NCBI GenBank assembly: GCA_000016765.1
Contig: CP000699.1
Location: 1,550,001-1,614,000 of the forward strand
DNA: 64,000 bases
Source of the DNA: Rhizorhabdus wittichii RW1
GTDB lineage: Bacteria > Pseudomonadota > Alphaproteobacteria > Sphingomonadales > Sphingomonadaceae
Direction: 5' to 3'
Positions 34,226 to 49,308 of the stretch are shown piece after piece. Position numbers and translations under genes: made by a program. Below the pieces are notes generated by a model. The model saw only the letters and a list, made by a program, of their open reading frames with translations, ran no database searches and was not told where the DNA came from. How positions within the stretch are numbered: position 1 is the stretch's first letter; every line of letters begins with the position of its first letter.

Positions 34226-35818
34226 TCACTTCATCGCGGGGACCATGCGGATGATCTGTGACGGGAGGTTCATCGCGACATAGAGGCTTCCGTCCGGCGC
34301 CTCGGCAACGTCGCGGACGTTGCCGTGCCGTTCGAAGAGCAGTTCCTGTTCGGTCACCGCATCATGCTCGATCGTCAGGCGCAGCAGCTTCTGCTGGCGA
34401 AGCGAGGTGACGAGCAGGCTGTCGCGCCAGGCGGGGAATGCCGTGCCGGAATAGAAGAGGATCGACGATACCGCGATCGACGGCGTCCAGTGAACGACCG
34501 GGGCGATGAAGCCGGCACGGTCGATCGGGCGCGACGGCGCGGTCAGTTCGATCGCCGCTTGCGAATGGCCGAGCGGATAGGCCGGGTCGAACGGACGCCC
34601 GTCATAGCCCATGCCGAAGGTCGCGAGCGGCCAGCCATAATTGCCGCCGCGCCGGATCAGGTTGAGCTCGTCGCCGCCGCGCGGGCCATGTTCGGACGAC
34701 CAGAGCCGGCCGCTGCGCGGATCGACGGCGAGGCCCTGGGGATTGCGATGGCCGAAGCTCCAGATCGTCGGATCGGCGCCCGGCACGCCGACGAACGGAT
34801 TGTCCGGCGGAACATGGCCGTCGTCGGCGACGCGATGGATCTTGCCGTTGGGGGTGGCGATGTCCTGCGCCTCCATCGCCGAATAGGCCCGGTCGCCGAC
34901 CGTGATGTAGAGCATCCCGTCGCTGCCGAAGGCGAGCCGGCCGCCGAAGCTCGGCGAGAGACGATAGCTTTCGGGCGCGGCCTGCCAGATCGTCGTCCGG
35001 TCCACCATCGCGTTGCCGGCGAGGCGGAAGCGGATCACCTTGAGCTGCGACGCGGTGGAGAAGCAATAGATCCGCCCGGCGCATTTCCGCGCCTCGCCGA
35101 ACCGGTCGGGCATCTCGTCGGTATAGGCGAGGTAGAGATAGCCGTTGCGCCGATAGTCGGGATGCCGCGCCAGGCCCAATATCCCGCCCTGCCCGAAGTC
35201 ATGGACGATGGCGGGGACGTTGGCGATCGGCGGGCCGACCTCGCCGCCAGTGGTGACGATGCGCAGCCGGCCCGGCCGTTCGCTGACGAGCATCCGGTCC
35301 GGCGACAGGAACAGGATCGACCAGGGCGTGTCGAGCCGCCCTTCGCCGACCACCGTCTCGAAGCGGAAGGCGGCGTGCGCGCTCGTCTGCGGACCGGTCG
35401 GGAAAGGCAGCGATTCGACCGTCCGCGCCTTGATATAGTCGGTCCCCTTCTCGCGGATCAGCGCCAGCAGGCCGAGCCGCTCATTCTCGGCCAGCGAAGC
35501 GGCGAAAGCGGGCATCCCCTTGTCGGGCACGCCCTCCGCGATCGTCTTCAGGATCGCGGCATCGTCCCCGCCGTGGATCCATGTCGCATCGATCAGCGAG
35601 GGGCCGATCCCGCCGGTCATGTCGGCGCCGTGGCAGCCCGCGCAGCTCTTCTCGAAGATCTGGCTGGTCAGCGGCACCGGCGATCGCGCGTCGAGGCCGT
35701 AGACCGCCGCCTGCTCGTCGACCGCCTGCGCGGACAGCAGCGCCGGAACCGCCGCCGCCCCGATCAGCAGCGCGAGGAGGCCCCAGGAACGGGCGGGCCG
35801 GGAGGAAGGACGGGTCAT
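34226..35818 (-). CDS. PQQ-dependent sugar dehydrogenase with N-terminal cytochrome c
   Basis: Protein of 530 residues. A signal peptide (to about residue 30) is followed by a cytochrome c domain with heme site C59-A-G-C62-H63 and then an aldose-sugar-dehydrogenase beta-propeller (GSDGMLYITVGDRAYSAMEA, WSFGHRNPQGLAVD, EHGPRGGDELNLI). This soluble glucose dehydrogenase fold binds PQQ and calcium; the attached heme would pass electrons on in the periplasm. Its start overlaps the end of the next PQQ gene (ATGA). It may oxidise an aldose, or the alcohol of cluster B. Confidence 0.85.
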   Translation of the reverse strand: MTRPSSRPARSWGLLALLIGAAAVPALLSAQAVDEQAAVYGLDARSPVPLTSQIFEKSCAGCHGADMTGGIGPSLIDATWIHGGDDAAILKTIAEGVPDKGMPAFAASLAENERLGLLALIREKGTDYIKARTVESLPFPTGPQTSAHAAFRFETVVGEGRLDTPWSILFLSPDRMLVSERPGRLRIVTTGGEVGPPIANVPAIVHDFGQGGILGLARHPDYRRNGYLYLAYTDEMPDRFGEARKCAGRIYCFSTASQLKVIRFRLAGNAMVDRTTIWQAAPESYRLSPSFGGRLAFGSDGMLYITVGDRAYSAMEAQDIATPNGKIHRVADDGHVPPDNPFVGVPGADPTIWSFGHRNPQGLAVDPRSGRLWSSEHGPRGGDELNLIRRGGNYGWPLATFGMGYDGRPFDPAYPLGHSQAAIELTAPSRPIDRAGFIAPVVHWTPSIAVSSILFYSGTAFPAWRDSLLVTSLRQQKLLRLTIEHDAVTEQELLFERHGNVRDVAEAPDGSLYVAMNLPSQIIRMVPAMK

Positions 35819-37941
35819 CGGGGCGATCTCCGGTCGGATTTGAGCCTGAACGCCCACAGCCGCACCCCGCCCGCGGGCGCGTCGATCTCCGGGGTGAGCG
35901 CGCGGGCGGTGACGTCGTTCGGGCTACCGCCGCCGGTGGTGACGGCGAGATACTGGACGCCCCCGGCCATGAAGCTGATCGGGCTCGCGCTCGGCACCTG
36001 GTCGAGCTTCAGCGCCCAGAGCGTGTCGCCCGAGCGGCCGTCGACCACCCGGAAAATACGATCGCGCGCACCATAGGCGACAATGCCGCCCGCCGTCGCC
36101 AGCACCGAGCCCGCCGACGGCGCGCGCTGGCGGCGGACCCATTTCACCTTCATGCCGTCGGGGTCGATCGCGGCGAGGCCGCCCAGATTGCCGTCGTCGG
36201 CGCGGGGCGGCGTCATCCCGAACGCGATGTCGAAGCCTTCGCCCTTCCGCCAGGAATAGTGCATGCACGACAGGGTGAAGGGCACGTAGATCAGCCTGCG
36301 GCCGGGATCATAGGCGGTCGACGGCCAGTTCCTGACCCCGGTGGCGAAGGGGCAGATGAACCTGGACCGGTCCGGATCGGGATCGAGCGCCGGATCGGTG
36401 ATCTTCCGGCCGGTGCGGGGATCGATCGCCTTGACCAGATTCTGGAAACCCATGTCGACCGATCCGACATAGGCGCCGGTCTTCGCGTCGAGCAGGTCGA
36501 GGATTCCGATCTTGCCGATCGTCGCCACCACGCGCCGCTCGCCGGTCCGGGTGCGCAGCGGGATGACCTGCCGCTCGAACGCCCAGTCGAAGTCCCACAC
36601 CTCGCGCGGCATGTGCTGGTAGAACCAGACGAGCCGGCCCGTGTCGGGATCGAAGGCGAGCGTCGAATTGGTGTAGAGCGCGTCGTTGGTCGTGCCCGCG
36701 CGGGCCGGTTTCCGCATCAGCGGGGCGATATGATAGGTCTGGCCGGTCCCGATCAGGATCAGGTCGTCCTCCGCATCATAGGTGGCGGTGGCCCAGATCG
36801 ACGCGCCGAACCGCTCGGCGCGCGGGGCACCGTTCCAACTGTCGGGCTCGCCGGTCGCTATCGTGTCGAAGCGCCACAGCTCCTTGCCGGTCTCCGCATC
36901 GAGCGCGACGACGAAGCAGCCCTTCGGCTCGCCGACGCCCGCGCAGCCGGCCATGCCCTGGATGATCTTGCCGCGCACCGCCAGCGGCCCCGCGCTGATC
37001 ATCAGCGTGCCGCTGCTGCTGGCGATCAGATGGTCCCACAGCAGCTTGCCCGATCGCATGTCGAGCGCGAGCATGTGGTTGTCGGAGGTCGGCACGTAGA
37101 GCCTGTCGCCATAGATCGCCATGCTGCGCGGCTGGCTGATCGGCAGGCCGGGCGGCGACGGGCGGCTGAAGGTCCACAACGGATCGCCGCTGGCGGCGTC
37201 GATCGCGAGGACGGTGCCGGAGCTGTTGACGAACATCACCCCGTCATGGACCAGCGGGGTGATGCCGTTGGTGCCGTTCGGCAACGCCAGGCTCCAGGCG
37301 ACCTCGAGCTGGGATGCGTTGGCGGCGGTGATCTGCGTCAACAGGCTTGCGCCGGCGCCGTCATAGCTGCGGCGCCAGTGCAGCCAGTCGCCGGGCGCGG
37401 GCGCGCGGAGATCGGCGTCGGACACCGTCCGCAGCGCGGCCAGCGTCTCGCGGCGCTGCCGGACCACCTGCTCATAATAGCGATCGTAATTCGGCTCGGG
37501 CTGGTCGAGGTTGCGAACCTCGGTCGCACTGGCATCGGCGGCCTTCGCGGCGCCGGCCTTCGCACCGCCCGCCGGATCGAGGTCATTGGCGCGGGCGATC
37601 GCCGCGACGATCCCGGCATAGGCGTCCGGCGGCAGCGAGCCGGGATCGCTGGGCGGCATGGTCTCGCTTATGTGGACGGCGAGCCGGTCCATCCGCGGCG
37701 CCCATTTCGCGACGAAGGACGCGCCCTTCAGCGCCGGGCCGAAACCGCCCTGGAAGTCCTGGCCATGGCAGGCGGCGCAATGGACCGCATAGGCCGATCG
37801 CGGCCCGGGCGCGTCGGACGCCCGCGCCCGGCCGGCCGGCGCGACGGCCATGATCGCCCCGGCGGCGATCACGCACAGGGCGGGAAGGACCGCCGGCGCA
37901 GCCCGCCGCGCGGCCGGGATGGAGCCGTGACGCACGCTCAT
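35815..37941 (-). CDS. Quinohemoprotein (PQQ) alcohol dehydrogenase with N-terminal cytochrome c
   Basis: Protein of 708 residues: signal peptide (to about residue 42), cytochrome c with C55-A-A-C58-H59 (CAACHGQDFQGGFGPALKG), then a PQQ propeller of eight-bladed type (WSLALPNGTNGITPLVHDGV, TYDAEDDLILIGTG, YQHMPREVWDFDW, GGLAAIDPDG). In most quinohemoprotein alcohol dehydrogenases the heme domain is C-terminal; a heme-first order is reported for polyvinyl-alcohol dehydrogenase. The substrate is therefore probably a secondary or polymeric alcohol, by inference. It overlaps its neighbours by four bases on both sides. Confidence 0.87.
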   Translation of the reverse strand: MSVRHGSIPAARRAAPAVLPALCVIAAGAIMAVAPAGRARASDAPGPRSAYAVHCAACHGQDFQGGFGPALKGASFVAKWAPRMDRLAVHISETMPPSDPGSLPPDAYAGIVAAIARANDLDPAGGAKAGAAKAADASATEVRNLDQPEPNYDRYYEQVVRQRRETLAALRTVSDADLRAPAPGDWLHWRRSYDGAGASLLTQITAANASQLEVAWSLALPNGTNGITPLVHDGVMFVNSSGTVLAIDAASGDPLWTFSRPSPPGLPISQPRSMAIYGDRLYVPTSDNHMLALDMRSGKLLWDHLIASSSGTLMISAGPLAVRGKIIQGMAGCAGVGEPKGCFVVALDAETGKELWRFDTIATGEPDSWNGAPRAERFGASIWATATYDAEDDLILIGTGQTYHIAPLMRKPARAGTTNDALYTNSTLAFDPDTGRLVWFYQHMPREVWDFDWAFERQVIPLRTRTGERRVVATIGKIGILDLLDAKTGAYVGSVDMGFQNLVKAIDPRTGRKITDPALDPDPDRSRFICPFATGVRNWPSTAYDPGRRLIYVPFTLSCMHYSWRKGEGFDIAFGMTPPRADDGNLGGLAAIDPDGMKVKWVRRQRAPSAGSVLATAGGIVAYGARDRIFRVVDGRSGDTLWALKLDQVPSASPISFMAGGVQYLAVTTGGGSPNDVTARALTPEIDAPAGGVRLWAFRLKSDRRSPR

Positions 37942-38990
37942 CGCGTCGGATCGAAGACCACCTTGCCGATGCCGCCTTCGCGCGCATCGAACCGGGCATA
38001 GCCCTCGGCGCCTTCGGACAATCCCATGCGATGCGTCACCAGCGCCTCGAGCGCGCCGGTGTCGATCCGGCCCGCCTCGATCGCGCCGAACAGCGCGGGC
38101 AATTCGGCCTGGACCGAACAGACGCCGATATGGAAATCGAGATTCTTGAGCATGCTGCCGATGATCGGAAAATCGATCTGCGGGCTTTCGCTCAGCCCGA
38201 CGACGGACACCCGCCCGCCCTTGCGGACCATGCCGATCGCAAGGCCGATCGTGACGGCGCTTCCGTTCGCATCCAGCACGACATCCGGGCCGTCGCCGCC
38301 GGTCAGCTCGATCGCCGCCTGCACCACGTCCGCCGCCTCGATCGGCTCCGCGCCCAGCAGGGCCGCCGCCGCCCGCCGGCTCCGCAACAGGTCGATGCCC
38401 AGGACGCGCTCGGCGCCCATCGCCTTCGCCGCCATCACCGCCTGCTGGCCGACCGGCCCCAGGCCGATCACCGCGACGACGTCGCCGGGCCGGACCCGCG
38501 CGCGGCGGGCGCAGAACCAGGCGGTCGCCAGATTGTCGGTCAGCATGATCCCGACCTCGTCCGACAGGCCCGGCGGCAGCCGCCACAGGTTGCGGTCGGC
38601 ATTGGGCACCGCCACGGCCTCGGCCTGGCTGCCGCCGATGCCCGGGAAACCCTGCCCGTAGATCATCGGGGCGCTCTGCGTCCGGCACAGATAGACGTCG
38701 CCCGCCCGGCAAGGATCGCACCGTCCGCACCCCAATATGGCGGGGAGCAGGACACGGTCGCCGACCCGGAAGTCGCGCACCTCCGATCCGACCTCGACCA
38801 CCTCGCCGACCGCCTCGTGGCCGATGCAGTAGGAACCATGCGCGGGCGCGCCATGATAGAGGTGCAGGTCGCTGCCGCACAGGCCGCACATCGTCGTCCT
38901 GACGAGCGCGCCCTGCCGGTCGGGCAGGATCGGATCGGGAACCGATTCATAGCCGATCCGCCCCGGCCCCAGATGGATGAGCGCCTTCAT
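37938..38990 (-). CDS. Zinc-dependent alcohol dehydrogenase (MDR)
   Basis: Protein of 350 residues. The catalytic-zinc ligands are in TTMCGLCGSDLHLYHG and GHEAVGEVVEVG; the structural zinc loop is CGRCDPCRAGDVYLC. The NAD site is VAVIGLGPVGQQAVMAAKAM. It oxidises alcohols or reduces ketones in the cytoplasm, unlike the periplasmic PQQ enzymes downstream. A strong GGAGGA site lies before the ATG at 38990; its stop overlaps the next gene. Confidence 0.92.
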   Translation of the reverse strand: MKALIHLGPGRIGYESVPDPILPDRQGALVRTTMCGLCGSDLHLYHGAPAHGSYCIGHEAVGEVVEVGSEVRDFRVGDRVLLPAILGCGRCDPCRAGDVYLCRTQSAPMIYGQGFPGIGGSQAEAVAVPNADRNLWRLPPGLSDEVGIMLTDNLATAWFCARRARVRPGDVVAVIGLGPVGQQAVMAAKAMGAERVLGIDLLRSRRAAAALLGAEPIEAADVVQAAIELTGGDGPDVVLDANGSAVTIGLAIGMVRKGGRVSVVGLSESPQIDFPIIGSMLKNLDFHIGVCSVQAELPALFGAIEAGRIDTGALEALVTHRMGLSEGAEGYARFDAREGGIGKVVFDPTR

Positions 38991-39045: not shown

Positions 39046-41637
39046 TCACCGAATGCGAACCCGCAGCATCACGCCATAGGTCGCCGGGGCGCCCGCCGTC
39101 TGGAAGTTGGTATCGAGCCCGATATTCCTCGCGACGACATAATATTTGTTGAAGACGTTCCGGCCGAAAGCGGTCAGCTTCCAGCTGTCGTCCTCGGCGC
39201 CCAGGCCCAGCCGGACGTCGACCGTCTCATAGCCGGGGATCCTGAAATCGCCGGCCAGCAGGATGCGGTTCTCGAAGGTCGCGTTCGATCCGCCCTGATA
39301 GCGGATGCCGGCGCCGACGAACGGCTTCAGGCCGCCCGCCGTCCATTCATACTGGACGTCGGCATTGGCGCTGAACTTCGGCGTGAACGGCAGCGCCGAT
39401 CCCTTGAAGTCGCCGGTATAGCCCTGGTTGTTGTAGACCGGCAGGCCGTCCGCCGTGGTCCGGAAGGTGCCGGACACCCTGGACTTCAGATAGGTCGCGC
39501 TGCCGTTGAGGGTCAGGCCGTCGACCGGCTCGGCGAACAGCTCGCCCTCCAGGCCCCAGACATAGGATTTGGGAACGTTGACCAGCTTTTCGAGCAGGCC
39601 GAAGATCGGCACCAGCAGCCGGGCGCGGACCTGCTTGTTGGTATAGTCGTAATAGAAGGCCGCGCCGTTGACGCGCAGGCGCCCGTTCAGCAGCGGCGCC
39701 TTGAAGCCGGCTTCATAGGCGATCACCTTTTCCTGGACGGCGGGGTCATATTCGTCGGTCACGGTCGCGCCGATCGCCGAGAACAGGCCGGCCTTGTAGC
39801 CCTGCTTGATCGTCGCATAGATCAGCGTGCCCTGGTCGAACTTGTAGTTGGCGCCGAGGTGGAACGACCAGTTGTCCTGGTTCAGCTTCAGGTTGAGGCG
39901 CGAAATCTGCGGGGCGTTCAGGGTCGTGCCGTTCTGGCCGTCGCCGAGCGGGAGGCAGTCGCCCTGCCGGACCTGCGTCGTGAAGGGCGGCAACCCGCGC
40001 AGCACGTCGGACAACAGGCCGAAGGTCGTGGTGAAATTGGGCGTGGTGACGAAGGACGGCTCGAAATAGCAATAGGACCCGGTCAGCTTGTTCTTCGTAT
40101 AGCGAAGGCCGGCCTGCACGGTCAGGTTGCCGGCCACCTCATATTCGACATTGCCGAAGGCGGCATAGGTCTTCTGCGAGGTGCGGATGTCGCCCTGAGT
40201 ATATTCGATCGGCAGGCCGACCGGCGCATTGAGCGTGCCATGGGCGAAATCGTAGAGGAAACCCTGCGACGCCCGGATATTGTCGTAGGTGGCGCCGGCG
40301 ATCCAGTGGAGGGCGTCGGTCTTGCCGGCCAGCCTCAGCTCCTGGTTGAAGCTGCGGACATTGCCGGTCAGGATCGAATCAATGCCGCGCGCGGCGGTCG
40401 CATCGAGATCGGCCACATAGTTCATCTTCTGCTTGGCGAGCGCCGAGAGCGAGGTGAGCGCGATATCGTCGGTCAGGTCATAGTCCGCCCGGACGATCCC
40501 CTGATAATAGTCGTTATGGTTGCGCCGCAGGAAGCCCGGCGTCCATTCCGCCTGGCGCGCATTGGTGGCGAGCGGCGTGCCCAGCAGCTCGCGCGAGCCC
40601 TCCGCCAGATCGGGGATCGACGGGATGGGAGCAACGCCGTTCATCCGCGCGACGATCAGCGCCTGGCGGCCCAGGAAGCTCGCGTCATAGTTCGGCGAGC
40701 CCGGGGTGGTGATCCCGGCATAGCGCGCCTCGTCGACATAGCCATAGGGGTTGGCCGTCGCCGGGTCGGCATTGGCCGCCGCCAGCGCGGAGGCGCTGTA
40801 GATGTTGAAATTGGTGCCGGCATATTGCGACGCGATCGGATCGGAACGATCGCGGACGCCGGTCAGGCTCGCCTGCACCCGCAGCCGGTCGACCGGCTTC
40901 CAGTCGATCGAGAGGCGGCCCTGGAGCCTGCGGGTGGCGCCATTCTCGTCGTCGGGCCGGGAGATGCTGCGTTGCCAGGCGCCGCCCTGGACCGCGCCGA
41001 CCGCCAGCCTGGCCTTGAAGCTGTCGGTCAGCGGGCCGCTGACGAAGCCGCTCGCGCTCATCTTGCCGAAGCGTTCATAGCCCAGATCGCCGCCGGCTTC
41101 GAAATGGTCGGTCGGCTTGGCGACGATATAGTTGATCGCGCCGCCGGTCGCGCTCTGCCCGAACAAGGTGCCCTGCGGTCCCTTCAGCACCTCGACCCGC
41201 TCGAGGTCGAGATCGAGCGCGCCCGACATGATCGGGACGTTGCGGGGCACCTCGTCGGTGTAGATGGCGACCGCAGGGGCGCCGCCGAAGGCGGATTCGA
41301 ACAGGCCGATCCCGCGCAGCGTATAGACCGGGGTCGCGTAGATGCCCTCGGTATAGGTGAAGCCCGGCACGATCTTGACGAGATCGGCGGGCCCCTGGAC
41401 GCCGCGGTCGCTGAGCGTCGCCGCGCTCGCCGCCTGGATGGTCATGCCGACATTGGCCAGCGACTGCTCGCGCTTCTGGGCGGTGACGACGATGTCGCCC
41501 AGTTCGGGCCTGTCGGCATGGGCGTCGTCGGAGGTCGGCTGCACGGCCTCGGCCCTGGGCTCGGCCTGGGCCAAGGCGGCGGCCGAAAAGGACAGCGTGA
41601 CGAGAGACACTGTACAGAATAATACCGATGTCCGCAT
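39046..41637 (-). CDS. TonB-dependent outer-membrane receptor (cluster B)
   Basis: Protein of 863 residues with signal peptide (AALAQAEP), TonB box GDIVVTAQKREQSLA (about residues 51-65), a plug with LERVEVLKGPQGTLFGQSAT and GGAINYIVAKP, and a long barrel. It has no STN domain. The last residues are MLRVRIR, without the usual C-terminal Phe or Trp used by the BAM complex. It starts the operon with alcohol and PQQ dehydrogenases, and its long plug and barrel loops fit a bulky hydrophobic substrate. GGGAGGA precedes the ATG. Confidence 0.92.
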   Translation of the reverse strand: MRTSVLFCTVSLVTLSFSAAALAQAEPRAEAVQPTSDDAHADRPELGDIVVTAQKREQSLANVGMTIQAASAATLSDRGVQGPADLVKIVPGFTYTEGIYATPVYTLRGIGLFESAFGGAPAVAIYTDEVPRNVPIMSGALDLDLERVEVLKGPQGTLFGQSATGGAINYIVAKPTDHFEAGGDLGYERFGKMSASGFVSGPLTDSFKARLAVGAVQGGAWQRSISRPDDENGATRRLQGRLSIDWKPVDRLRVQASLTGVRDRSDPIASQYAGTNFNIYSASALAAANADPATANPYGYVDEARYAGITTPGSPNYDASFLGRQALIVARMNGVAPIPSIPDLAEGSRELLGTPLATNARQAEWTPGFLRRNHNDYYQGIVRADYDLTDDIALTSLSALAKQKMNYVADLDATAARGIDSILTGNVRSFNQELRLAGKTDALHWIAGATYDNIRASQGFLYDFAHGTLNAPVGLPIEYTQGDIRTSQKTYAAFGNVEYEVAGNLTVQAGLRYTKNKLTGSYCYFEPSFVTTPNFTTTFGLLSDVLRGLPPFTTQVRQGDCLPLGDGQNGTTLNAPQISRLNLKLNQDNWSFHLGANYKFDQGTLIYATIKQGYKAGLFSAIGATVTDEYDPAVQEKVIAYEAGFKAPLLNGRLRVNGAAFYYDYTNKQVRARLLVPIFGLLEKLVNVPKSYVWGLEGELFAEPVDGLTLNGSATYLKSRVSGTFRTTADGLPVYNNQGYTGDFKGSALPFTPKFSANADVQYEWTAGGLKPFVGAGIRYQGGSNATFENRILLAGDFRIPGYETVDVRLGLGAEDDSWKLTAFGRNVFNKYYVVARNIGLDTNFQTAGAPATYGVMLRVRIR

Positions 41638-41808
41638 AAATCCTCCCATTGATATTACGTCTTGCGCCCATTTCCCGAAGTCGTCGATCGGTCGCCGGAC
41701 AGTCGAGCAAATGGCCGATCATATGGATTGCCTTGGCCGGCCGCATGCGGCGGTCGTGCAATATCGTCTATTCTTGCGACATCCTCCCTCAAAGGGCGCC
41801 GGCCGTCT

Positions 41809-41826
41809 GTCCCCGACATCGGGGAC
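41809..41826. promoter_or_regulatory. Candidate operator O1 (cluster B)
   Basis: Perfect 8-bp arms GTCCCCGA and TCGGGGAC around CA. The reverse form agrees at 16 of 18 positions with O3 at 45066-45083 in the other divergent region of cluster B, so a shared regulator, most simply the LuxR protein at 44150, may bind both. Confidence 0.55.
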
Positions 41827-41858
41827 GGTGCCGCCGGCATCGGTCATGCCGCCGGGAA

Positions 41859-41876
41859 GTCCCCGATAGAGGGGGC
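41859..41876. promoter_or_regulatory. Candidate operator O2, weaker copy
   Basis: GTCCCCGATAGAGGGGGC keeps the left arm of O1 and most of the right arm (14 of 18 positions). Its centre is 50 bases from that of O1, close to five helical turns, which would place two bound dimers on the same face of the DNA. Confidence 0.4.
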
Positions 41877-42060
41877 ATATTCCAGTCCCGGCGTGACTAG
41901 GCTGAGGGTCGAGGTTTCCGATTCAGCGGCGGTTCGAACCAATACCGGCGCCGGCACCCTACGACCTTCCGTCATGAAAGGGACGACGCCATGCATGGAA
42001 CGCAAGACATATGCCGGTGACGTCATCCGTCCTGTCGGAATCCTCAAGGAGGATGTTCTG

Positions 42061-43311
42061 ATGAAAAGTATCTTTTTCCATATGCAGGGGTATCGCGACA
42101 TGCCCCGTGACTTCGCGCAGCGCTATGAAAGCGTCTGGATCACGCCGCCGAGCGACGAACTCTGCGATCCGGAAACCGCCGGCAAATATTTCCGGTGGAA
42201 CATGGAGGAACTCGAACTCGCCGACGAGCTGGGCTTCGACGGGCTGGGCATCAACGAGCATCACCAGAACGCCTATGGCTTCCCGGTCTCGCCCAATCTG
42301 ATGGCGGCGATCCTCGCCCGGCGGGAATCGAACGCGGCGATCATCAACCTCGGCAACACGCTGCCGCTCTACAATCCGCCGATCCGCGTCGCCGAGGAAT
42401 TCGCGCTGCTCGACTGCCTGAGCGGCGGGCGGCTGGTCGCCGGCATCCCGGTCGGCACGCCGATGGACACCGTCGGCTGCTACGGCCTGCCGCCCACCCA
42501 GGTCCGCGCCCGCTATTATGAGGCGCACGACCTCATCAAGCAGGCCTGGACCCGGCCGGGGCCCTTCCCGTTCAACGGCCGCTTCACCAAGCTGCGCTAC
42601 GTCAACCCCTGGCCGAAGCCGATCCAGAAGCCGCACCCGCCGATCTGGCTGGCCGGCGGCGGGTCGATGGAGACCTGGAAATTCGCGACCGACAACAATT
42701 ATGCCTACAACTTCCTGAGCTTCGGCGGTCCGCTGGCCGCCAAGGCGATGATGCAGGGCTATTGGGACCAGGTCGAACGGGCCGGGCTCGACGACAATCC
42801 CTATCGGGCCGGCTTCGCGCAGATGGTCGTGGTGGGCGAGACCGATGCCGAGGCCGAGCGGCTCTACCTCGATCACCTGCGGAACTTCTTCGCCATCTCG
42901 ATGCACACGCCGCCGCATTTCGCGGGCATCCCCGGCGTGATGACGACCGACAGCATCCGGAATCTCGTCAAGAAGAACGTGAACCTGACCTACAAGCAAT
43001 ATGAGAATCCCTATGAGACGAGCTGGAAGGACATCGTCGAAAGCCGTCGCGTGATCGGCGGAAGCCCGGAGACGGTCGCCGACGTCCTGGAGGAGTCGAT
43101 CCGCGACCTGCGCGTCGGCCATCTGATGTTCATCCTGCAGATCCAGTCGATGGATCGCGAACTCACGGAATATAATATGCGCCTGTTCGCCGAGAGGGTG
43201 ATGCCCCGGATCCGTCGCATCTGGGACGACGAGGGCCATGTCGATCACTGGTGGCCGGCCCGCGCCACCACCCAGCGAAAAAGCGCCGGAACCCTGGAGG
43301 TGGTGGCATGA
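42061..43311 (+). CDS. LLM-class flavin-dependent monooxygenase
   Basis: Protein of 416 residues of the luciferase-like fold: WNMEELELADELGFDGLGIN followed by EHHQNAYGF (the EHH signature), NLGNTLPLYNPPIRVAEEFA, LDCLSGGRLVAGIPVGTP, and PIWLAGGGSMETWKFA. Members use reduced FMN and O2 for hydroxylation or Baeyer-Villiger oxygen insertion. A flavin reductase is not next to it. ATG 42061 follows AAGGAGG; its TGA overlaps the hydrolase start. Oxygen insertion into a ketone made by the PQQ or Zn dehydrogenases is a reasonable guess. Confidence 0.87.
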   Translation: MKSIFFHMQGYRDMPRDFAQRYESVWITPPSDELCDPETAGKYFRWNMEELELADELGFDGLGINEHHQNAYGFPVSPNLMAAILARRESNAAIINLGNTLPLYNPPIRVAEEFALLDCLSGGRLVAGIPVGTPMDTVGCYGLPPTQVRARYYEAHDLIKQAWTRPGPFPFNGRFTKLRYVNPWPKPIQKPHPPIWLAGGGSMETWKFATDNNYAYNFLSFGGPLAAKAMMQGYWDQVERAGLDDNPYRAGFAQMVVVGETDAEAERLYLDHLRNFFAISMHTPPHFAGIPGVMTTDSIRNLVKKNVNLTYKQYENPYETSWKDIVESRRVIGGSPETVADVLEESIRDLRVGHLMFILQIQSMDRELTEYNMRLFAERVMPRIRRIWDDEGHVDHWWPARATTQRKSAGTLEVVA

Positions 43312-44096
43312 CCATGGCGACGATCGAACCGATCGAGATCAATGCGCGCTTCGTGCCCAATCCGGTCCTGGTGAAAGGCGAAGGCCGTCCCCTCGTCTAT
43401 CTGCACGGCCTGATCGGCCAGGAATGGCCGGACCTGCTCGATCGCCTGTCGGGCCGGTTCAGGGTCCACGCGCCGGCCCATGCCGGCAGCACCGATGCGC
43501 GCGACCTGGAATCGCTCGACGGCTTCTCCGACCTCGTCCTCTATTATGACGACCTGTTCGACCGGCTGGGCCTCGACCAGTTCGACCTCGTCGGCCACAG
43601 CTTCGGCGGCGCCGTCGCCGCCGAATATGCCGCGACCTTCAACCGCCGCGTCCGCAAGCTGGTGCTGATCGACGCGCTCGGGCTGTGGGACGACGATCAT
43701 CCGGTCGCCGATCACCTGCTGGCGCCGGAAGCGACACGACGCGGCCTGCTCTATCACGATCCGGAGTCGCCGGCGGCGCTGGCCCGCCACAAGCTGCCGG
43801 AGGGACAGGAGGAGATGCTGGCCGCGATGATCGGCGACATCACGGCGCTGGCGAGCACCGCGCATTTCTTCCACCCGATCCCCGAGCGCGGCCTCGACCG
43901 GCGCCTGCACCGCATCACCGCCGAAACGCTGGTGATCTGGGGCGAGGCCGATCGCCTGACGCCGCCCTTCTACGGACGCGCCTTCGAAACTGGCCTGCAA
44001 CGCGCGCGGCTGGCGATCGTCCCGGATGCCGGGCATTCGCCGCACATCGAGCAGGCGGCGCAGGTCGAGGCGCTCATTTCCGGCTTCCTTGCCTGA
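43308..44096 (+). CDS. Alpha/beta-hydrolase coupled to the LLM monooxygenase
   Basis: Protein of 262 residues. HGLIGQEWPDLLDRLSGRFR gives the oxyanion region, Ser98 lies in DLVGHSFGGAVAAEYA, the Asp in IWGEADRLTPP and the His in PDAGHSPHIEQ. No signal peptide is present. It shares ATGA with the LLM gene, so the two are made together and the hydrolase probably opens the ester or lactone formed by that oxygenase, or a C-C bond of the meta-cleavage type. A GGAGGTGG site precedes the start. Confidence 0.87.
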   Translation: MTMATIEPIEINARFVPNPVLVKGEGRPLVYLHGLIGQEWPDLLDRLSGRFRVHAPAHAGSTDARDLESLDGFSDLVLYYDDLFDRLGLDQFDLVGHSFGGAVAAEYAATFNRRVRKLVLIDALGLWDDDHPVADHLLAPEATRRGLLYHDPESPAALARHKLPEGQEEMLAAMIGDITALASTAHFFHPIPERGLDRRLHRITAETLVIWGEADRLTPPFYGRAFETGLQRARLAIVPDAGHSPHIEQAAQVEALISGFLA

Positions 44097-44149
44097 ATGA
44101 CGCCACCGGCGGTCGACGCCCCTCCAGGCATCGGCCGCCGCCCCTCCTT

Positions 44150-45004
44150 TCAGTTGCCGGGATGGGCGAGCCGGGCGATCGGGCCGCTGATCGCCTCCAG
44201 CCCGGAAATCGACCTTATGTACCACAGGAACAGGTCGTAGCGGTTCGCCAGTCCCAGCCGGCCATAGGCGCGCTTGCGATAGGTGGTGACGGTCTCCAGC
44301 CCGACATTGAGGTCCAGCGCGATCCCCTCGACCGAGAGGCCCGCCAGGATGCGAGCGCAGACCTCCACCTCGCGCCGGGGCAGGCCCTCGTCGGCCTGTC
44401 GGATATTCTCCTCGATCACCTCCTTGCGGGTCAGCGACCGCAATAGATGGTCGGTCTTGTCGAGCAGCATCGCATGTTTGGCGATCGCCGAGATCAGGCT
44501 TGCGCCGACATGGCAGAGATGCGCGACGTCGGCGTCGTGGAACTTGCCCCGGCCGGGCGTCCGGAACAGGCCCAGCAGGATCGGCCTGCTCTGCGCATAG
44601 CCCGCGAACAGCAGGCGATCGACCACCTCCGACCGATAGATCTCCGTCGCCAGACAGGGGTCCAGCTCGTCGCGCGGCATGTGCAGCAGGATCGGGTCGC
44701 TGTTGCCCAGATGGGAATTGGCGATCTTGATGCCGGGATCGATCTTCCAGTGCTGGCCTTCGACATAGGGCGAATAGCCCTCGCGGGCATGACGCTTTCC
44801 CTGGAGGCTCGACAGGCCGATGGTCTTCGGCCGCTCGGCCGAAAGCTCGACGAAGATGCAGCTTTCGGCCCCGAAGGCCTGCGCCGTATAGTCCATCAGG
44901 ATGTCGGTGAAATCATTCGCGCCGACAGCGTCTATCACGGGCGCGAGCGACGCCCCGGCAGAGGCGCCGACCAGGTCCACGGTCCATGAGTCGCGATGGT
45001 GCAT
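44150..45004 (-). CDS. LuxR-family transcriptional regulator (cluster B)
   Basis: Protein of 284 residues. The C-terminal helix-turn-helix reads LPRREVEVCARILAGLSVEG and IALDLNVGLETVTTYRKRAY. The N-terminal half (about residues 25-190) looks like an autoinducer- or GAF-like sensing domain of unknown ligand; no luxI or histidine kinase is near. It lies between the LLM operon and the divergent esterase-ligase operon. A GGGAGAG site precedes the ATG, and O3 lies 62-79 bases upstream of the start. Confidence 0.83.
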   Translation of the reverse strand: MHHRDSWTVDLVGASAGASLAPVIDAVGANDFTDILMDYTAQAFGAESCIFVELSAERPKTIGLSSLQGKRHAREGYSPYVEGQHWKIDPGIKIANSHLGNSDPILLHMPRDELDPCLATEIYRSEVVDRLLFAGYAQSRPILLGLFRTPGRGKFHDADVAHLCHVGASLISAIAKHAMLLDKTDHLLRSLTRKEVIEENIRQADEGLPRREVEVCARILAGLSVEGIALDLNVGLETVTTYRKRAYGRLGLANRYDLFLWYIRSISGLEAISGPIARLAHPGN

Positions 45005-45065
45005 TGTTGCGTCTCTCCCGAATGTCGGCCTTGGACCGGCCGGCAAAACCCGGATTCGACCTCCC

Positions 45066-45083
45066 GTCCCAGATGCCGGGGAC
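45066..45083. promoter_or_regulatory. Candidate operator O3 (LuxR gene and esterase-ligase operon)
   Basis: GTCCCAGATGCCGGGGAC, a near-palindrome matching O1. It is placed between the luxR-type gene and the divergent esterase gene, where autoregulation and activation of both directions would be expected. Confidence 0.5.
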
Positions 45084-45135
45084 TTCGGCCGATCCCGCAA
45101 GCGACTACCCTGCGCCAGACGAGACACCGACGCCA

Positions 45136-45152
45136 CCCCATCCGATATGGGG
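45136..45152. promoter_or_regulatory. Dyad CCCCAT-N5-ATGGGG
   Basis: Perfect 6-bp arms, five-base spacer, 17 bases before the esterase start. It has the same CAT-N5-ATG core as the dyad at 41835-41851, but the outer bases differ, so it may be chance. Confidence 0.3.
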
Positions 45153-45168
45153 CCCGCATGGAGGACAT

Positions 45169-46095
45169 ATGGCCCTTGACCCCGAAATCGCCGGCTTCCT
45201 GGAACAGATGCAGGCGGCAGGCTTCCCCGCCTTCGGCAGCATAGCCGCGCCGGACCTGCGGCGTTTCCTGAAGGGCCTGGCCGAGATGGCGCCAGCGGGG
45301 CCAGCCATGGCGACGGTGCGCGACGTCATGGCCGAAGCCGGCGGACAACCAGTTCCCATCCGCCTCTACGTCCCACGGACCGCGCCGCGCGCGCTGATCC
45401 TCTTCTTCCATGGCGGGGGCTGGACGATCGGCAGTGTCGCGGAAAGCGACGGCTTCGCCCGCCTCCTCGCCGGCAGCCTCGGCTGCGCGGTGGCCAGCGT
45501 CGATTATCGGCTGGCGCCCGAGCATCCCTTTCCGGCGGCGGTGGACGACGCCTTCGCCGCGCTGCGCTGGATCGCCGATCATGGCGCGGAGCTGCTCGGC
45601 CAGCCATGCCCGCTGCTGCTGTTCGGCGACAGCGCCGGCGCCAACCTGGCCGCGGTCGCCACCCTGCTGGCGCGCGATGCGGGCGGGCCGGCGATCGCCG
45701 GGCAGGTCCTGCTCAACCCGTCGACCACCCCCGACGCCGACAGCCGCCCGGCCGGCGACATCGACTCCCCCTTCATCACCCGCGACGAGATCGCCTGGCT
45801 GTTCGATCAATATGTCCCCGATCGCACGATGCGGCGGGACCCTCGCTTCGCGCCGCTCGGCGCCGCGAGCCACGCCGCCCTGCCCCCCGCCCTCATCCTC
45901 ACCGCCGAGCACGACCTGCTGCGGACCGACGGCGAGGCCTATGCCGAGACGCTCGCCAGCGCCGGCGTCCGGGTAGTGGCGAAACGCTATCCCGGCGCTA
46001 TCCATAGCTGGCTCACCCTCAACCCCGCCTTCGCCCTCAGCCAGCAGGCCCTGGCCGACATCGGCCGCTTCGTCGACGAACTGCTCGATGGCTGA
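45169..46095 (+). CDS. HSL-family alpha/beta-hydrolase (esterase)
   Basis: Protein of 308 residues with the hormone-sensitive-lipase signature HGGGW (81-85) and the nucleophile Ser155 in [15 protein letters not shown], plus [12 protein letters not shown]. The Asp and His are in [17 protein letters not shown] and PGAIHSW. These esterases prefer short acyl or bulky alcohol esters. The start at 45169 has GGAGG. The stop overlaps the AMP-ligase start by eight bases. Confidence 0.88.
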
Positions 46096-47878
46096 GCCGA
46101 GCCATGTGCATGGCGCGGCCGAGCCGGCGCTATGGGAGATGACGATCGGCGAAGCGCTGGACGCCGCCGCCCGGCGCTGGCCCGAGCGCGAGGCGCTGGT
46201 CGATTGCGGGCAGGCGGTGCGGCTGAGCTGGCGCGATCTCGCGCGCCGCGCCGGGGATTTCGCCGCGGGCCTGCTCGCGCTCGGCCTCGCGCCGGGCGAC
46301 CGGATCGGCATCTGGTCGCTCAACCGGGTCGAATGGGCGATCACCCAGTTCGCCGCCGCCAAGGCCGGGCTGGTGCTGGTGACGATCAACCCCAACTACC
46401 GGCTGTCGGAGCTCGAATATGCGCTCCGCTCGGTCGGCTGCGCGGCGGTGGTGACGGCGTCCGTCTTCAAGTCGAGCGACTATGTCGGCATGCTGCGGAC
46501 GCTGATGCCGGAAATGGCGGCGGGCCCCGGCTTCGTCGCGGAACGGCTGCCCGCGCTGCGCCACGTCATCCAGATGGACCCCGAGCCGGTCGCGGGGGCC
46601 GTGGCCTTCGCGACGGTTGAAGCGCTGGGACGCGACGCCGGACCGGCGCGGCTCCGCGCGCTGGAGGGTGTCCTCGGGTCCCGCGACCCGGTCAACATCC
46701 AGTTCACCAGCGGCACCACCGGCCTGCCCAAGGGCGTGACGCTCAGCCATCGCAATATCCTCAACAACGGCTATTTCACCGGCCTGAAGCTCAAGCTGAC
46801 GGCTCAGGACCGGATCTGCATCCCGGTGCCGCTCTATCATTGCTTCGGCATGGTGATGGGCAATCTCGCGGCCGTCACCCATGGCGCCGCGATGGTCTAT
46901 CCCGGCGAGGGCTTCGATCCGCTCGCCACCCTCGCCGCCCTGTCCGGCGAGCGCTGCACCGCGCTCTACGGCGTGCCGACCATGTTCATCGCCCAGCTCG
47001 AGCATCCCGCCTTCGCGGCGCACGACCTCTCCAGCCTGCGCACCGGCATCATGGCCGGATCGCCCTGCCCGATCGAGGTGATGCGCAAGGCGATCGACCG
47101 GATGAACCTGCGCGAGATCACGATCTGCTACGGCATGACCGAGACCAGCCCGGTCAGCTTCCAGAGCGAGACCGACGACCCGGTCGAGCTGCGCGTCGGA
47201 ACGGTCGGCCGGGTCCACCCGCATCTCGAGGTCAAGATCGTCGATGACGCGGGGGAGACCGTGCCGCGCGGCGTGGCGGGCGAGTTGTGCACCCGCGGCT
47301 ATTCGGTGATGCTCGGCTATTGGAACGACCCGGAGCAGACCGCCGCCGCGATCGACGATGCGGGCTGGATGCACAGCGGCGACCTCGCGACGATCGACGA
47401 GGACGGCTATTGCCGGATCGTCGGCCGGATCAAGGACATGGTGATCCGGGGCGGCGAGAATCTCTACCCGCGCGAGATCGAGGAGTTCCTCCACACCCAT
47501 CCGGCGATCCGCGACGTCGCGGTCTTCGGCGTCCCCGACCGGCATTATGGCGAGGAGCTATGCGCCTGGATCATCCGCCACGACGGCGCGCCGATCGACG
47601 AGACCGAGGTCCGCGCCTTCTGCCGGGGCCACATCTCGCACCAGAAGATTCCCCGCCATATCCGCTTCGTCGATGCCTTCCCCCTCACCGTCACCGGCAA
47701 GGTCCAGAAGTTCGTCATGCGCGAACAAATGGTCCGAGATTGGGAGGACGCCTCGACGCCGGGCCGGGAGCCCGATCACATCACGCCGGCGCGCGATCCC
47801 GCAGGTCGCGCACCCGCGCCGCCTTGCCCGACGAACGCGGCAGGGCGCCCGATTCGACGATCCGGGTCCGGGCGCTGA
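46088..47878 (+). CDS. Acyl-CoA synthetase (AMP-binding)
   Basis: Protein of 596 residues, ANL superfamily: P-loop [20 protein letters not shown] (about residue 200), [12 protein letters not shown] (A5), [34 protein letters not shown] and the C-terminal lysine [13 protein letters not shown]. It resembles fatty-acyl-CoA synthases (FadD3/AcsA type), activating a carboxylate with CoA. Homologues end about 540-545 residues in; a Pro/Arg-rich tail of about 45 residues overlaps the antisense 3' end of paaK by 98 bases, so the true stop may reflect drift. Confidence 0.9.
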
Positions 47879-49070
47879 TGCCGATCACCTCCTTGACGTA
47901 GCCGGCCAGGCGGGCGCCCTCGGCGCCGCCGCGGGTCTCGTCGCAGTCGAGGCGGCGCTCGACGATGATCAGCACCTCGTCCATCCGGCCCGGACGGGTG
48001 ATCTCGACCTCGAAATGCGGGGCGAGGCCCTCGCACTTGAGCACCTGCTCCTCGATCTGGGTCGGGAAGACGTTGACGCCGCGGATGATCAGCATGTCGT
48101 CGCTGCGGCCGGTGATCTTCGCCATGCGGCGCATCGGCACCTCGATGCCGGGCAGCAGCCGGGTGAGGTCGCGGGTGCGGTAGCGGATGATCGGCAGCGC
48201 CTGCTTCGTCAGCGAGGTGAAGACCAGTTCGCCCTCCTCGCCGTCGGGCAGCACCTCGCCGGTCGCTGGGTTGATCACCTCGGGGTAGAAATGGTCTTCC
48301 CAGATGGTCGGCCCGGCCTGCGACGCCACGAACTCCTGCGCGACGCCGGGGCCCATCACCTCGGACAGGCCGTAGATGTCGCACGCCTTGATGTCGAACG
48401 CCTCCTCGACCTCGCGGCGCATCGCCTCGGTCCAGGGCTCGGCGCCGAAGATGCCGTATTTGAGCGAGCTCGCGCGCGGATCGATGCCCTGGCGGCGGAA
48501 CTCGTCGAGGATCGCCAGCATGTAGCTCGGCGTCACCATGATGATGTCGGGCTTGAAGTCGCAGATGAGCTGCACCTGCTTCTCGGTCTGGCCGCCCGAC
48601 ATCGGGATGACGGTGCAGCCCAGCGCCTCCGCGCCGTAATGCGCGCCGAGGCCGCCGGTGAACAGGCCGTAGCCGTAGGATATCTGGGCCTTCATGCCCG
48701 GCCGGCCGCCGGCCGCGTGGATCGAGCGCGCGACCAGGCTCGCCCAGGTCTCGATGTCGCGCTTGGTATAGCCGACCACCGTCGGCTTGCCCGTCGTCCC
48801 CGACGAGGCGTGGATGCGCGACACCTGCTCCTGCGGCACCGCGAACATCCCGAACGGATAGGTCGCGCGCAGGTCGGCCTTGGTGGTGAAGGGGAAGCGG
48901 GCGAGGTCCGCGAGCGTGGTCAGGTCGTCGGGGGTCACCCCGGCCGCGTCGAACGCCTTCGCATAATGGGGCGAGTTGGCATAGGCATGCGCCAGCGTCG
49001 ATTTCAGCCGCTCGAGCTGGAGCGCCCGCAGTTCCGCCAGATTCGCGGGGCCATAATCGACCTCAGCCAT
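47781..49070 (-). CDS. paaK: Phenylacetate-CoA ligase
   Basis: Protein of 429 residues with [20 protein letters not shown] (P-loop), the PaaK-type [16 protein letters not shown] opening, [17 protein letters not shown] and the C-terminal domain ([20 protein letters not shown]). It makes phenylacetyl-CoA, the entry step of the Paa pathway, and uses ATP. GGAGAGG precedes ATG 49070. No other paa gene is in the window, so it is isolated here, or shared with cluster B, whose ligase it converges on. Confidence 0.9.
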
Positions 49071-49308
49071 GATCCTCTCCCTCCATTCCTGCGCACGACC
49101 CACGGCGGCCGGAGCGATGGCATGGCGCCCATAGTGGACCGTGCCGACGTTCCCGACAACCGGACGAAACCCCGAAGCCGAGCAGGCGTGGATGACGAGA
49201 ATCGCCTGTCCGCCCACCGCTCCGACGCCCCGCTGATATAATTAAACGTCTGGTCGATCAATATATGAAACGCCCGAAAATCGGGATCGGAATCGAGTTT
49301 CGGCCGGA
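49071..49308. other. Intergenic region between paaK and the efflux gene
   Basis: No gene. It has an AT-rich patch (about 49232-49268, TATAATTAAACG and CAATATATGAAACG) that may hold the paaK promoter on the minus strand; no clear operator was recognised. Confidence 0.4.

Follow-up and report, generated by a model that had tools for sequence, protein, structure and literature searches.

A GTCCC-N8-GGGAC dyad with fixed promoter geometry is a candidate operator of a LuxR/GerE-domain regulator at three operons of Rhizorhabdus wittichii RW1

We analysed a 64-kb stretch of Rhizorhabdus wittichii RW1 DNA (the window; bases 1550001-1614000 of the 5,382,261-base chromosome, in a genome of 5,915,246 bases on three contigs) in which a gene cluster around a LuxR/GerE-domain regulator (encoded at 44150-45004) carries three 18-base inverted repeats, O1, O2 and O3. 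Our preferred interpretation, to which we give a probability of roughly 0.8, is that O1-O3 are operators of this regulator, which would act as a class II activator with one operator per promoter on three operons. We infer that a dimer of the RW1 LuxR protein binds GTCCCC-N6-GGGGAC (core GTCCC-N8-GGGAC), and that it activates rather than represses: with the dyad about 21-22 nucleotides (nt) upstream of the -10 hexamer, the dimer would occupy the -35 region and recruit RNA polymerase as a class II activator, in the manner of LuxR at the lux box. O1 would serve the tonB-alcohol dehydrogenase (ADH) operon, O2 the luciferase-like monooxygenase (LLM)-hydrolase operon and O3 the esterase-ligase operon, and the signal would probably be a pathway substrate or intermediate that the N-terminal domain recognises. 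We observed directly the sites themselves, their recurrence with genes of one LuxR subfamily and their fixed distance from a -10-like hexamer.

The first-pass annotation of this DNA had described the three sites, and its description was accurate in its coordinates, in the perfect arms of O1, in the match of O2 to O1 (14/18 identical, centres 50 bp apart) and in the match of O3 to reversed O1 (16/18). It had noticed no such site elsewhere in the window. GTCCC-N8-GGGAC with up to one mismatch has exactly three matches in the 64 kb, namely O1, O2 and O3. For GTCCCCGANNTCGGGGAC with up to three mismatches the window has six matches, three of them outside O1-O3, where shuffled sequence averages 1.2 (0/100 shuffles reach six). 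Exact GTCCC-N8-GGGAC occurs at six places in the 5.9-Mb genome, including O1 and O3, which are 3.3 kb apart; of the other four, three fall within predicted genes, and the fourth, in an intergenic region, has no -10 at the right distance. O1 is the sole exact GTCCCCN6GGGGAC in the genome and also the sole exact TCCCCGANNTCGGGGA, with eight further places within one mismatch of the latter. We rejected this 16-mer as the family motif because it is too narrow, its inner GA..TC being present in few relatives only. The left flank of O1 reads AGAC on the minus strand, agreeing at all four positions with the base most frequent in relatives. Whether the dyad occurs at random frequency thus has two answers: its genome-wide frequency is background-like, and its local association is not. 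Single sites are unremarkable across the genome; the departure from chance lies in the way they cluster, in their geometry relative to promoters and in their repeated presence next to related LuxR genes.

To follow the dyad in relatives we used a profile-guided scan of genome contigs, which gave 48 loci; we used the best 43 (E 2e-19 or lower) and kept the five with the poorest scores, L104-L108 (E 3e-10 to 2e-5), out of every count. An unbiased scan of all 1024 five-base arms, with spacers of 0-20, across the 63 kb predicted to be intergenic in the 43 loci returned GTCCC-N8-GGGAC as the top dyad (36 copies in 23 loci) and TCCCC-N6-GGGGA as the second (20 copies in 18 loci), with the best unrelated dyad reaching seven loci. 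Combined, the first two are the arms of O1. Exact intergenic GTCCC-N8-GGGAC thus occurs 36 times in the LuxR loci and not once in 30 kb of DNA from 20 control loci; with up to one mismatch the counts are 70 and 1. Reversed-arm controls of the same spacing gave no match in the LuxR loci, and exact TCCCC-N6-GGGGA gave 31 in 24 loci against 0 for a same-composition control, indicating that the spacing is specific. The control loci came only from six sphingomonad genomes, at round coordinates picked by hand, and the betaproteobacterial background was controlled only by the spacer and reversed-arm controls inside the same loci. With up to one mismatch and convergent gaps excluded, 32/43 loci have a site. 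Ten loci, nine of them betaproteobacterial by title, contain a form with a spacer of 5, in 17 copies altogether. In eight betaproteobacterial loci (L061, L070, L073, L075, L079, L080, L081 and L083) we saw the 17-bp GTCCCC-N5-GGGGAC, some copies being within script-called genes.

Exact sites lie a median of 56 bp from the nearest predicted start, and the 36 fall in 17 divergent, 18 co-directional and 1 convergent gaps. Reading outward from the dyad toward the gene, TAnnnT stands at a gap of 22 nt in 15/94 windows; when nine further loci and similar arm patterns are included, it does so in 24/129 oriented windows, with no more than five at any other gap. At 21-23 nt we counted 31 such hexamers, from 23 loci, against a shuffle mean of 3.5 (largest value, 10 in 500 shuffles). 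With a -10-like element fixed 22 nt downstream, the dyad comes to lie over the -35 region, the arrangement of class II activation; if the hexamer starts at -12, the dyad would span about -52 to -35. Judged from sequence, this distance to the -10-like hexamers fits putative class II activator promoters. O3 with its TACCCT is the only match in the RW1 genome to the strict composite pattern (GTCCC-N8-GGGAC, 21-23 nt, TAnnnT). The luxR side of O3 has no -10-like hexamer at the matching distance, and we find no support for O3 acting on luxR itself. The earlier proposal of one LuxR regulon of four transcription units is strongly supported as to the regulon, the same dyad standing beside LuxR relatives, and reduced to three as to the units.

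The absence of any sigma-70 promoter-like pair from 41600-42080 and from 44980-45190 fits promoters that depend on an activator. It also bears on a different possibility, namely that the same LuxR protein binds the sites and represses, covering the -35 region until a pathway compound releases it. A dimer in that position can block RNA polymerase, and the sign of regulation is unreadable from sequence; however, the lack of such pairs speaks against repression, and a -10 placed exactly 22 nt away in many loci fits polymerase contact better than simple blocking. We consider repression improbable.

Two sites 26-50 bp apart were found in seven divergent gaps, including that of RW1 and one in R. histidinilytica between PQQ dehydrogenase (pyrroloquinoline quinone-dependent) and P450 genes; L089 and L090 are near-duplicates. 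A2 and T6 of the -10 are both present in 10/14 outward-facing positions of these pairs and in 0/14 inward-facing positions, so the simplest reading is that O1 and O2 each serve a promoter of their own. The two could instead form a joint cooperative or looping operator of one promoter, their 50-bp separation being about five helical turns; but the seven distances (26, 26, 29, 33, 38, 46 and 50 bp) have no helical period and the -10-like elements face outward only. We consider a joint operator improbable as well.

The regulator belongs to the LuxR/GerE-domain proteins by its GerE (PF00196) helix-turn-helix (HTH) domain (E 7.5e-9; 35.5 bits against a cut-off of 23.5), the only Pfam match at E 0.001; residues 1-207 have none. 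There was no Pfam match to an Autoind_bind N-terminal domain or to a receiver domain, placing the protein outside the acyl-homoserine-lactone LuxR receptors and the NarL/FixJ response regulators. It also falls outside the MalT/LAL class, at 284 aa and with no ATPase match in Pfam; the MalT NCBIfam model scored 21.6 bits against a cut-off of 537, in the HTH part only. A phmmer search gave no relative in the PDB, and the regulator profile matched HTH chains only (FixJ, NarL and GerE; 17 at E 0.1, best FixJ, 8e-5). By protein search at E 1e-20, relatives were found in 7/397 family genomes, its own included, the others being 26-40% identical; a profile search at E 1e-25 found LuxR-subfamily genes in 32/397. 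The 37 relatives aligned to the RW1 regulator are 24-36% identical to it and share T, RKR and Y without exception in the region of the recognition helix (TYRKRxY, with THRKR in one of them). The RW1 protein has this signature together with nearby GTCCC-N8-GGGAC sites and a -10 at about 22 nt, and so qualifies for the subfamily. RW1 has five full-length members; at the four other paralogue loci no intergenic dyad site was found, which we count in favour of the preferred interpretation. The profile match of a second RW1 member (G000:C1:856308-857009) runs across one TGA, as do those of members in G174, G320 and G381. The sphingomonad genome G303 has six members on two contigs, several beside TonB receptor genes (L044:4599, L045:3323, L045:8334). 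The Sphingobium plasmids pTK2 and pMI1 (L056, L057) carry LuxR-subfamily genes within near-identical catabolic islands that also contain P450, LeuCD-like and HMG-CoA lyase genes.

The loci had been selected by LuxR, and IclR- and MarR-type genes occur in eight of them each, so that another regulator, linked to LuxR genes by chance, might bind the dyads. No other identified regulator family is present in more than 8/43 loci (a partial count, with 10 of 22 listed families annotated), and other gene families reach at most 22 loci. Moreover, each of the six G303 paralogues is accompanied by CCCC-N6-GGGG-type sites in the contigs examined. Another regulator is therefore very unlikely. Least likely of all are terminator or other RNA hairpins, suggested by the G+C-rich repeats with a 6-base loop and by several dyads directly behind luxR genes: O1-O3 have no terminator-like site (one match, 41749-41768, is elsewhere), and of 81 spacer-5/6 sites only three are in convergent gaps (20% of intergenic bases), against 38 in divergent gaps.

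We also scanned 80 genomes (32 LuxR-positive, 48 not) for the strict composite. It occurs at eight places, five of them within 24 kb of a LuxR-subfamily gene: O3, two in G174 (about 16 and 23 kb), one in G162 (about 18 kb) and one in G017 (about 7 kb). The remaining three, in G199, G015 and G043, are away from such genes. In 4/7 LuxR-positive genomes with the exact 18-mer GTCCCCN6GGGGAC, the site is at most 12 kb from a LuxR-subfamily gene.

Several results weigh against operators of this LuxR protein. The backward control of the composite was found at 21 places (our own count) against 8, so the composite test rests on location, not number; in the RW1 genome the backward control of exact GTCCC-N8-GGGAC occurs at 10 places against 6. 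The exact 18-mer is present in 46/397 family genomes, 39 of which have no LuxR-subfamily gene at E 1e-25, and in only 7/32 LuxR-positive genomes; as a genome-scale marker of the LuxR gene (7/32 against 39/365 genomes) it was too weak to keep. By the same count that finds a site in 32 loci, 11/43 loci have none, and the loci share ancestry, so that counts are not independent. Our custom gene-calling script labels O1-O3 'coding' through long upstream extensions of open reading frames (ORFs), O2 carries one arm mismatch and O1 has only a weak -10.

The features of the window are collected in Table 1. By Pfam, the TonB receptor and PQQ dehydrogenase genes run leftward, the LLM monooxygenase and hydrolase genes rightward, the regulator gene leftward, and the esterase and acyl-CoA (coenzyme A) ligase genes rightward. 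A minus-strand gene beside the cluster (47781-49217) passes the NCBIfam cut-off of the PaaK (phenylacetate-CoA ligase) model. Conservation in orthologous clusters, as the first-pass annotation had envisaged, is not found literally, as no close orthologue of the regulator, the LLM gene or the region was found; it is across the regulator subfamily that the dyad is conserved. In a same-genus genome, a 6.8-kb contig (G399 contig C235, L040) has the LLM-hydrolase-esterase-ligase order of the window, but we rejected it as an orthologous cluster at 32-41% protein identity; it has no LuxR match, and no O1-type site is among the sites listed for it.

Table 1. Sites, candidate promoter elements and genes of the cluster (window coordinates)
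Feature	Position	Strand	Remarks
O1, GTCCCCGACATCGGGGAC	41809-41826	no strand	Perfect arms; exact family dyad; proposed operator of leftward tonB-ADH promoter
O2, GTCCCCGATAGAGGGGGC	41859-41876	no strand	One mismatch to GTCCC-N8-GGGAC; proposed operator of LLM-hydrolase promoter
O3, GTCCCAGATGCCGGGGAC	45066-45083	no strand	Exact family dyad; proposed operator of esterase-ligase promoter
GAGGAT, putative weak -10-like hexamer for tonB	41781-41786	-	22 nt from O1; only A2, A5 and T6 of TATAAT match
TAGGCT, -10-like hexamer for LLM-hydrolase	41898-41903	+	21 nt from O2
TACCCT, -10-like hexamer for esterase-ligase	45106-45111	+	22 nt from O3
PQQ dehydrogenase with cytochrome c domain	35815-38889	-	PF01011, PF13442
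TonB-dependent receptor	39046-41649	-	PF00593, PF07715
LLM monooxygenase	42061-43311	+	PF00296; start placed by AAGGAGGA-like ribosome site
Alpha/beta hydrolase	43251-44096	+	PF00561; ORF as listed, true start may be further in
LuxR/GerE-domain regulator, 284 aa	44150-45004	-	PF00196 at residues 208-260; subfamily alignment
HSL-type esterase	45169-46095	+	PF07859; NF058653 from about residue 66 of longer ORF
AMP-binding acyl-CoA ligase	46088-47878	+	PF00501

A Pfam scan of 20 genes adjoining sites or LuxR genes in relatives gave matches for 18. The families matched were PQQ dehydrogenase, P450, CoA transferase III, zinc ADH, glyoxalase-type, ring hydroxylase, MmgE/PrpD, amidohydrolase, NIPSNAP, hemerythrin and FAD oxidoreductase. 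We lean slightly towards a wider proposal, in which a ligand-sensing LuxR subfamily of alpha-, beta- and gammaproteobacteria would use one promoter code, GTCCCC-N6-GGGGAC (in betaproteobacteria the 17-bp version with N5) followed after 22 nt by TAnnnT, to control catabolic islands (TonB receptors, P450s, PQQ dehydrogenases, CoA transferases, ring hydroxylases). In G303, GCCCCC...GGGGGC sites that differ in their outer bases and have TAGCTT at 22 nt stand before tonB genes, suggesting that paralogues in one genome may separate their regulons by outer-base changes. If the proposal is true, a short sequence rule would predict the genes switched on by each subfamily member, among them genes for transport, oxidation and CoA activation whose pathways are unknown, in pollutant-degrading sphingomonads and their relatives. 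Orphan catabolic clusters would become defined regulons, and inducible promoters would be at hand for finding their substrates.

In the lux box system of Vibrio fischeri, a GerE-domain regulator, LuxR, activates in class II fashion from an imperfect inverted repeat of ~20 bp over the -35 region, centred near -42.5. The RW1 system is alike in its GerE-domain regulator and in an inverted repeat of similar length that would lie over the -35 region with a similar centre, but the dyad sequence differs, and the N-terminal part of the regulator, with no Autoind_bind match, gives no sign of acyl-homoserine-lactone sensing. CrbR is a LuxR-family activator of carbon-source genes that uses an imperfect inverted repeat, the ACTU motif, at sites such as CGCTACCATGGTCGAAT (PMC5715377); the likeness lies in the regulator family and the inverted repeat, whereas CrbR belongs to the response regulators and its motif is a different one. 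The DevR/OsdR dormancy regulators are GerE-domain response regulators that recognise G-rich palindromes such as the listed site GGGGACGATCGTCCCC (PMC5069765); their half-sites stand as GGGAC...GTCCC, in the opposite order to the GTCCC...GGGAC of the RW1 dyad. Among open-licence papers we found no description of a GTCCC-N8-GGGAC operator or of this LuxR subfamily. The mechanism is conventional; what is new is the proposed operator, its promoter grammar and the subfamily.

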